Below are positions 10,917 to 64,000 of a stretch of DNA of 64,000 bases, piece by piece. Source of the stretch: Halorubrum halophilum (lineage in GTDB: Archaea > Halobacteriota > Halobacteria > Halobacteriales > Haloferacaceae); contig NZ_BBJP01000014.1 in the NCBI RefSeq assembly GCF_000739595.1, positions 1 to 64,000 of the forward strand, in the 5' to 3' direction. The position numbers and the translations under genes were made by a program. The stretch's first letter is position 1. Every line of letters starts with the position of its first letter. Below the pieces are notes generated by a model. That model was given only the letters and a program-made list of their open reading frames with translations. It was not told the DNA's origin and did no database searches.

Positions 10917-11382
10917 CTTGATCGATAGTGGGAGTGGGTATAGCACGTTGGGAGTGAGGTTGTTTATAAGCGATCGAGTAGTGTTGCTGTCGGCTGTTTA
11001 TAAGTGGTTGATGGTGGGTCGGCGGTGAACACCTCCAAAGCCCCAGCCGACGAGGCGGGCGCACGCTCGCTGCGCTCCTCGGTCGCTCGCAGTGCTCGCT
11101 CTCTGCGGTGCTTGCGTCGCCTGCGCCCGCCTCGTCGGCTGCCCCTTTGAGTCCCGCCCGCAACCGCACAGCGCCTCACGCCTCCCCAGCCTCGTCGGTG
11201 GTCCTCCGCTTCGCTCCGGACCACCGACTCCCTCGCACCGTCGGTGAGCGGCCCAGAGGGCCGCTCACCGGGGCGCGCCACCGCCTCGTTCATTTATAAG
11301 CGATCGTCGCTGTCACTCGTGGCCTTTTAAATGCTGGATCGCCACCACCGATCTGCAACACCCACTCCCGCCATCGATCGTC
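10917..11382 (+). repeat. Structured repeat element, copy 1 (full length)
   Basis: A roughly 465-bp element bounded by imperfect inverted repeats: left 10920-10945 and right 11354-11379, 22 of 26 matching, core GGGAGTGGGT. Inside, in order: TTTATAAG boxes at 10963 and 10997 (34 apart); conserved ACCTCCAAAGCCCCAGCC at 11031; an 18-bp perfect stem (11046-11063 with 11122-11139); conserved GGCTGCCCCTTTGAGTCCC; hairpin B (11194-11204 with 11218-11228); hairpin C (12-bp perfect stem 11243-11254 with 11258-11269, loop AGA); then TTTATAAG at 11293 and TTTTAAAT at 11325 (32 apart). No convincing ORF is inside. Three further copies in the window share this order. It could be a non-autonomous mobile element, a structured RNA gene, or both. 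Confidence 0.85.
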
Positions 11383-21642: not shown

Positions 21643-22104
21643 TGATCGACTGCGGGAGTGGGTATTGCAGATCGGTAACGGTTATCGATTATTTAAACAA
21701 CGGGAAGCAACGGTGACGATCGCTTATAAACGAACAATGCGGTGGCGCGCCCCGGTGAGCGGCCCGGAGGGCCGCGAACCGACGGTGCGAGGGAGTCGGT
21801 CGTCCGGAGCAACGCGGAGGGCGACCGACGAGGCTGGGGAGGCGTGAGGCGCCGTGCGGTTGCGGGCGGTGGGACTCAAAGGGGCAGTCGCGAGGACGGC
21901 GCAGGCGACGTAAGCACCACAAGGAGCGAGTGAAACGAGCGACTGAGGAGCACAGCGAGCGTGCGCCGTCCTCGGCGGCTGGGGCTTTGGAAGTGTTCAC
22001 CGAAGGGTCGTCGATCGCTTATAAACACTCAACGGCAACACCACTCATTCACTTATAAATAACCGATCAGCCGAATAGACACACGCACTCCCGCTCTCGT
22101 TCAC
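21643..22104 (-). repeat. Structured repeat element, copy 2 (full length, reverse orientation)
   Basis: About 460 bp. The plus-strand left end GATCGACTGCGGGAGTGGGT (21644-21663) and the right end around 22085-22095 (GCACTCCCGCT) form the inverted termini; the right one is degraded. On the minus strand: TTTATAAG boxes start at 22059 and 22025 (34 apart), conserved AACACTTCCAAAGCCCCAGCC, a 13-bp perfect stem (21891-21903 with 21962-21974), conserved CTGCCCCTTTGAGTCCC, hairpins B and C, then TTTATAAG from 21730 and GTTTAAAT from 21698 (32 apart). The stem sequence differs from copy 1 but remains paired. It sits upstream of the PGF-CTERM gene on the same strand. Confidence 0.85.
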
Positions 22105-33965: not shown

Positions 33966-33974
33966 GGTTTTTAA
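33966..33974 (+). terminator. T-tract after glucoamylase
   Basis: GGTTTTTAA directly follows the glucoamylase stop; a T5 run suitable for archaeal termination. It sits about 45 bases before the third repeat element. Confidence 0.45.
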
Positions 33975-34014
33975 ACCGGTTCTGTGAAACCGGTCGGCCG
34001 CTGATGGCTGCTTC

Positions 34015-34432
34015 TTGATCGATAGCGGGAGTACGTGAATCTCTGTGGTGGATCGGTTGTTTATAAGCGATCGACGACGCTGCGGTGACGATCTCCAAAG
34101 CCCCAGCCGTGAGGACGGCGCACGCTCGCTGCGGTCCTCAGTCACTCACTCCGTTCGCTCCTTGCGGTCCTTACGTCGCCTGCGCCGTCCTCACGGCTGC
34201 CCCTTTGAGTCCCACCCGACCGCACCGCACAGCCTCACACCTCCCCAGCCTCGTCGCTGGCGGCTGGCGCCGCCAGCGACTCCCTCGCGCGGTGCTGCTC
34301 GGCCACGAAGCGGCCTCGCAGGCACGCGCCACCGCCATCATTTATAAGCAACCGTTGTGCTCGCTCTCGGCTATTTAAATATCGCATCACTAGCGACGAA
34401 CTGCAACACCTACCCCCGCTATCGCCCGCCGC
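34015..34432 (+). repeat. Structured repeat element, copy 3 (full length)
   Basis: About 415 bp. Termini: GATCGATAGCGGGAGTACGT at 34017 and the inverted CTGCAACACCTACCCCCGCT at 34401-34420. Internal order matches copy 1: TTTATAAG at 34060 (the first of the paired boxes is missing), TCTCCAAAGCCCCAGCC at 34092-34108, a 17-bp perfect stem (34106-34122 with 34181-34197), GGCTGCCCCTTTGAGTCCC, hairpin B with a different but perfect 12-bp stem (34253-34264 with 34269-34280), a weak hairpin C, then TTTATAAG at 34341 and ATTTAAAT at 34373 (32 apart). It lies between a plus-strand gene and a convergent minus-strand gene. Confidence 0.85.
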
Positions 34433-34452
34433 TGTCACCGATCGGGGGGCGC

Positions 34453-63712: not shown

Positions 63713-64000
63713 ACAGAATTGGTGTTGCGACGACCGTTTATAAACGGATCTGCGGTGCGGTTGCGGTGGGTGGGGCTCAAAGGGGCAGTCGTGATCCCCG
63801 CGAGCAACGCGAGCGGGGGCACGGGAGACGAAGTCTCCCGGAGAGACGAAGCCCGCTGTAGCAAGCACCGCAGCGAGGGAGCGACAGCGACCGAGCGAGG
63901 AGCGCAGCAAAGCGCGCGAGTCGTCGCGACTGGGGCTTTGGAGGTGTTCACCAGGATGTCGGCAGCGACCACTTATAAATAAACCACAGAAACGCGCAAT
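63705..64000 (-). repeat. Structured repeat element, copy 4 (short form, cut by window end)
   Basis: On the minus strand from the window edge: TTTATAAG starting at 63979, GGTGAACACCTCCAAAGCCCCAG (63930-63952), a stem-loop region between 63920 and 63785 with new sequence (AGTCG/CGACT closing), then CTGCCCCTTTGAG at 63776-63788. It then goes directly to a TTTATAAA box (63737-63744) and GTTTAAAA (63707-63714), skipping the region that carries hairpins B and C in other copies. No terminal inverted repeat is visible on the lrp side. So this is a deletion variant or a separate subtype. Confidence 0.8.

Follow-up and report, generated by a model that had tools for sequence, protein, structure and literature searches.

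A dispersed hairpin element of Halobacteria that keeps its fold while its stems change in sequence

The window, a stretch of 64,000 nucleotides from Halorubrum halophilum (contig NZ_BBJP01000014.1), carries several copies of a non-coding repeat of about 460 bp. Copy 1 (10920 to 11379) is bounded by the inverted ends GATCGATAGTGGGAGTGGGTAT and ACACCCACTCCCGCCATCGATC, and its folded strand is the minus strand. The main hairpin of copy 1 (11025 to 11161, minus strand) is matched by R1, a covariance model of the minus strand, with an E-value of 1.3e-32; in its outer stem, the arm at 11044 to 11063 pairs perfectly over 20 bp with the partner arm at 11122 to 11141. It is accompanied by two smaller minus-strand hairpins, hairpin B with 11-bp arms (11194 to 11228) and hairpin C with perfect 13-bp arms (11242 to 11270; pair 11242/11258). 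Copy 2 (21643 to 22103) lies in the opposite orientation, on the plus strand, and contains a main hairpin at 21865 to 22000 (plus strand, E 7e-34). For copy 3, comparison with four other Halorubrum genomes in which the site is empty gives an insertion interval of 33969 to 34446 (minus strand), which includes the main hairpin (about 34085 to 34219, minus strand) and a hairpin B with 12-bp arms (34253 to 34280, minus strand). Copy 4 (L135; about 63740 to 64000, plus strand) is partial, as it continues past the end of the window; it is more divergent than copies 1 to 3 and has an extra hairpin module inserted in its main stem. A first-pass annotation had described perfect main stems of 18 bp in copy 1 (11046-11063/11122-11139), 13 bp in copy 2 (21891-21903/21962-21974) and 17 bp in copy 3 (34106-34122/34181-34197), together with a hairpin B that differs in sequence between copies 1 and 3 and is perfectly paired in both. 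All of these are present, the stem of copy 3 reaching 19 bp with its flanks, and the three stems are parts of the 460-bp repeat. They are not explained by chance: the window contains seven perfect inverted 17-mers with a spacer of at most 100 nucleotides, which overlap and all lie within copies 1 and 3, whereas first-order Markov controls yield a mean of 0.0, and 22 inverted 13-mers were observed against a mean of 1.35 in the controls. The folding energy of the hairpin is -78.2 kcal/mol (z = -4.4 against dinucleotide shuffles).

The element is dispersed through the chromosome in well over 100 copies. Its 11-bp core CAAAGCCCCAG occurs 159 times in the H. halophilum genome (3.68 Mb in 103 contigs) and the reversed control only five times; the genome has fewer elements than core motifs, as the motif is present in tandem in some copies. 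BLAST with copy 1 retrieved about 40 copies, either complete or partial, together with a few short secondary matches, and 96 copies were extracted from the genome. Full elements have inverted ends of about 22 bp (TGATCGATAGCGGGAGTGGGTAT); in addition to the three hairpins (main, B and C), their interior contains TTTATAAGCGATCG boxes. Both inverted ends are found in 35 of the 96 copies and neither end in 50; none of the copies with both ends shows a target duplication of more than 4 nt (28 of 35 have none at all, the others 3 to 4 nt). A 57-bp unit with CAAAGCCCCAGCCG at its end is often tandemly repeated beside the hairpin. In many copies, the hairpin is preceded in the plus sense by tandem units of 57, 54 or 51 bp, in which a TATA-like box is found along with CAAAGCCCCAGCCG (L065, L109, L103, L086, L123). 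Several sites within the main hairpin carry small inserted modules of two perfect hairpins with triloops (L135, L066, L074, L086, L097, L106, L112); these modules fall into at least four sequence types and resemble the SMR-A insertions described in Haloquadratum.

The folded minus strand has a common layout, in which GGGTGGGACTSAAAGGGG at the 5' end is followed by a variable stem, a ladder of short helices with tandem GA mismatches, the complementary stem and GGGGCTTTS at the 3' end. The inner mismatches of this strand are tandem GA, which is typical of stable sheared pairs. Covariation of the stems, which the first-pass annotation had named as a check, was analysed with an R-scape-like script (not R-scape itself) using a null based on FastTree and Fitch counts. 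Double changes occur at 17 of the 29 predicted pairs in 76 aligned copies. In 56 aligned type-I copies of H. halophilum, all twelve top-scoring column pairs are helix pairs, one of which (columns 27/123) had been omitted from the consensus owing to alignment gaps; three of the twelve pass the tree-based null with E<0.01, and one has E=0.06. Hairpin B is present with 24 distinct arm sequences of at least 8 bp among the copies of this genome, mostly as perfect arms of 11 to 15 bp. The annotation had given selection on structure rather than on sequence as one of two readings; the structural part of this claim is supported, but structure alone is not sufficient, since GGGTGGGAMTGAAAGGGGC, GACGYAAGCACYG, GCRCAGCGAG and GGGGCTTTC are conserved in sequence. 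The class-wide anchors also contain conserved G runs, GGGTGGGA..AAAGGGG..GGGG (e.g., L167-L196), which might be able to fold, at molar KCl concentrations, into a quadruplex that includes a hairpin loop. The sequence GTGGGACTGAA may resemble the ends of haloarchaeal CRISPR repeats.

The first set of hairpins collected across the class was pre-selected for pairing, and a second set of 127 distinct non-Halorubrum copies was therefore selected by the conserved anchors only, with no pairing requirement. In this set, 94% of the 11 outer pairs are Watson-Crick pairs, compared to 56% when the arms are swapped between copies, and at least nine of the 11 pairs are formed in 121 of the 127 copies (swapped arms, 7.7%). 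In the pre-selected set, controls with a slid register were only 22-25% paired, and all four Watson-Crick pair types are present at most pair positions. Copies that have the inverted ends and copies that lack them are equally paired (0.96 and 0.95). In the minus sense, the 127 copies contain 30 G.U and seven A.C oppositions (p=2e-4), and the pairing-filtered set contains 31 and five; in the copies of H. halophilum alone, however, the excess is weak (18:9, p=0.12). In the absence of strand choice, mutation should produce G.U and A.C equally, and the excess of G.U shows that the folded strand is the minus strand of the window, with the caveats that strand-biased deamination and relatedness among copies could influence this ratio. 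The asymmetry also argues against a symmetric double-stranded cruciform, one of the roles suggested in the first-pass annotation. As a further possibility, very recent palindrome formation had been considered there; this is not supported, as the fixed internal mismatches, the anchors and the hairpin layout are common to the whole class. Furthermore, four Natrinema-type loci, homologous in both of their flanks (80-92% identity), have stems that differ and are still paired, with double changes and one G.U among the stem changes, and such compensatory changes in place likewise speak against a recent origin of the palindromes. Replacement or re-insertion also happens: at L187 and L282, the flanks are 92-94% identical and the entire intergenic element is different.

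R1 matches were found in 178 of 242 genomes of Halobacteria, representing 58 of 73 genera (e.g., Haloarcula, Halosimplex, Natrinema, Halorussus, Haladaptatus and Halonotius), with copy numbers of 4 to 74 in twelve other genera. Among 196 genomes drawn from across the phylum, all 24 matches lay inside Halobacteria and none in the sampled genomes outside the class. A viral origin was rejected, as neither IMG/VR contigs (two anchor patterns) nor phage records gave a match. The element is present in only five plasmid records, with at least 95 haloarchaeal plasmid records existing, and the TnpB-rich contigs C65, C37, C54, C72 and C79 of H. halophilum (at least 246 kb) contain no copy against 10.6 expected, which suggests that it is restricted to the main chromosome; it seems to be largely confined to main chromosomes, unlike the ordinary transposons of this genome. 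Its presence differs between species: most Halorubrum species lack an element at the copy-1 site, and the copy-3 site is cleanly empty in four species, occupied in the same orientation in two and inverted in one. According to gene calls based on codon-usage predictions made in the present analysis, all 96 copies are intergenic; convergent genes flank 45 of 93 copies (compared to 11 of 57 gene pairs in the window; p=4e-4), and divergent genes flank 12 of 93. Inverted twin hairpins were found for 47 of 143 copies from the class and for none of 67 copies of H. halophilum itself. The twins of other genera lie 25-300 bp apart, for example at L169, L180 (Halonotius-like) and L168/L179 (G058).

Several families of dispersed repeats resemble the element in part. 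The bacterial REP/REPIN (BIME) elements, which are associated with RAYT tyrosine transposases, are dispersed intergenic palindromes with more than 100 copies per genome, inverted pairs, conserved feet and variable stems (PMC3116915, PMC2817692). The inverted pairs are matched by the twin hairpins of the archaeal element; however, REP palindromes comprise 20-40 bp with a tetranucleotide foot of the GTAG/CGTC type, whereas the hairpin described here is about 130 nt long with many internal loops and the foot GGGTGGGAMTGAAAGGGG. A dedicated stand-alone Y1 transposase such as RAYT is missing as well: only three Y1 transposase matches (137-140 aa) were found in H. halophilum, and all of them have a TnpB gene no more than about 1.2 kb away, which is the arrangement of ordinary IS605-type elements and not that of RAYT. 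PATEs and small mobile repeats (SMR) of Haloquadratum walsbyi are transposase-free and contain palindromes, some elements include inserted smaller repeats, and SMRs have inverted ends without target duplication (PMC3119063). The combination of SMR features is seen in 35 of the 96 copies, those with both ends; over half of the copies lack both, and PATEs and SMRs differ from the element in the class-wide conserved, covarying hairpin. PATEs share near-terminal palindromes with IS605-type transposons, whereas the hairpin was found at only one of 23 TnpA/TnpB loci, with about three expected by chance; IS605/TnpB element ends or omega-RNAs were rejected on the same ground. The length, inverted ends, lack of coding capacity and presence/absence polymorphism are reminiscent of MITEs; however, the short or absent target duplications and an internal hairpin that is conserved between genera whether or not the ends are present are not. 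The tested defining features thus fail for each of REPIN, PATE and MITE, with the exception of the inverted pairs of REPINs. The promoter repeats of the halovirus HF2, at 56-58 bp, are about as long as the 57-bp units, but the motifs quoted for them are different (PMC8707807). ORF clustering around 155 loci was noisy, with mostly spurious frames that were merged, and revealed neither a recurrent neighbouring gene nor a clear transposase cluster. In Rfam searches, only a tRNA elsewhere in the window reached its gathering score, and six loci gave no relevant match at E<=5. No published description was found in the open-access literature (subscription papers were outside the scope), the Haloquadratum PATE/SMR paper being the closest.

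The pairing conserved despite sequence change, the single folded strand, the intergenic dispersal and the variable presence between species are observed. The most likely explanation, which we hold with about even confidence, is that the element is dispersed but non-autonomous and that an unidentified trans-acting factor recognizes the fold of its single strand, be it ssDNA or RNA. The stems would then belong to an interspersed non-coding family that spans Halobacteria, as the conserved helices of its main hairpin. It is inferred that the fold may be exposed on a single strand, either at an ssDNA stage of replication or transposition or in a transcript, and that the factor would be needed for spread or upkeep; we propose that selection by such a factor would keep each stem paired while leaving its letters free. 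This explanation is supported by the covariation above the tree-based null, the class-wide pairing, the in-place changes in Natrinema and the G.U excess, and further by the class-wide distribution, the empty sites, the intergenic and convergent placement, the inverted twins and the pairing independent of the ends. Evidence against it includes the absence of a recurrent adjoining transposase family, the lack of any sign that a factor binds to the hairpin, the minority of copies with both inverted ends, the lack of longer target duplications and the weak G.U excess in the own genome.

Alternatively, the element might encode a structured non-coding RNA of minus sense, which acts in trans as a ribonucleoprotein, and many of its copies would be genes or retro-/transposed gene copies. 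The strong strand-specific G.U excess, the length of the fold with its multiple loops, tandem GA mismatches and internal loops of conserved sequence, and TATA-like boxes flanking many Halorubrum copies are in line with this possibility, which we nevertheless consider rather unlikely: no TATA-like signal at a fixed distance is present in 129 copies from other genera, a fixed-distance promoter outside Halorubrum being rejected accordingly, next to co-directional genes the copies lie about equally often in either orientation (20:16), and there is no relative in Rfam. Within the favoured reading of a factor-recognized single-strand fold, we lean slightly towards ssDNA, because a promoter common to the class is missing and the orientation is independent of neighbouring genes.

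It is also conceivable that mutation homogenises the stems by template switching or arm-to-arm conversion, thereby producing covariation without selection on the fold. Indeed, the stem interior of L065 (about 972-1077) and L125 (about 1034-1136) is the reverse complement of that of other copies, an inversion between the arms indicating that arm-to-arm exchange happens, and the stems change faster than the flanks. However, the internal-loop mismatches persist uncorrected at fixed places, and the G.U/A.C asymmetry and the conservation of anchors and layout across 58 genera also speak against this explanation, which we consider improbable. Weaker still is a cis-acting role between genes, e.g., as a bidirectional terminator or insulator, as it fits the nearly half of copies between convergent genes, but not a strand-specific fold without orientation preference, the many orthologous sites without the element or the copies between divergent genes.

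A more tentative proposal, to which we give less than even confidence, is that the haloarchaea possess a hitherto undescribed structured RNA, or a folded ssDNA, which is spread class-wide with well over 100 chromosomal copies, might form a (ribo)nucleoprotein with an unidentified partner and would represent an archaeal REPIN/SINE-like counterpart. Without an Rfam entry or a description that we could find, a strongly covarying, strand-specific hairpin family is present in most haloarchaeal genera and, by a rough count (159 core motifs x 460 bp), occupies up to about 2% of the H. halophilum chromosome. It shows that dispersed elements can change in sequence and yet keep a uniform structure, and it offers a genetically tractable route to the factor that would read the fold.
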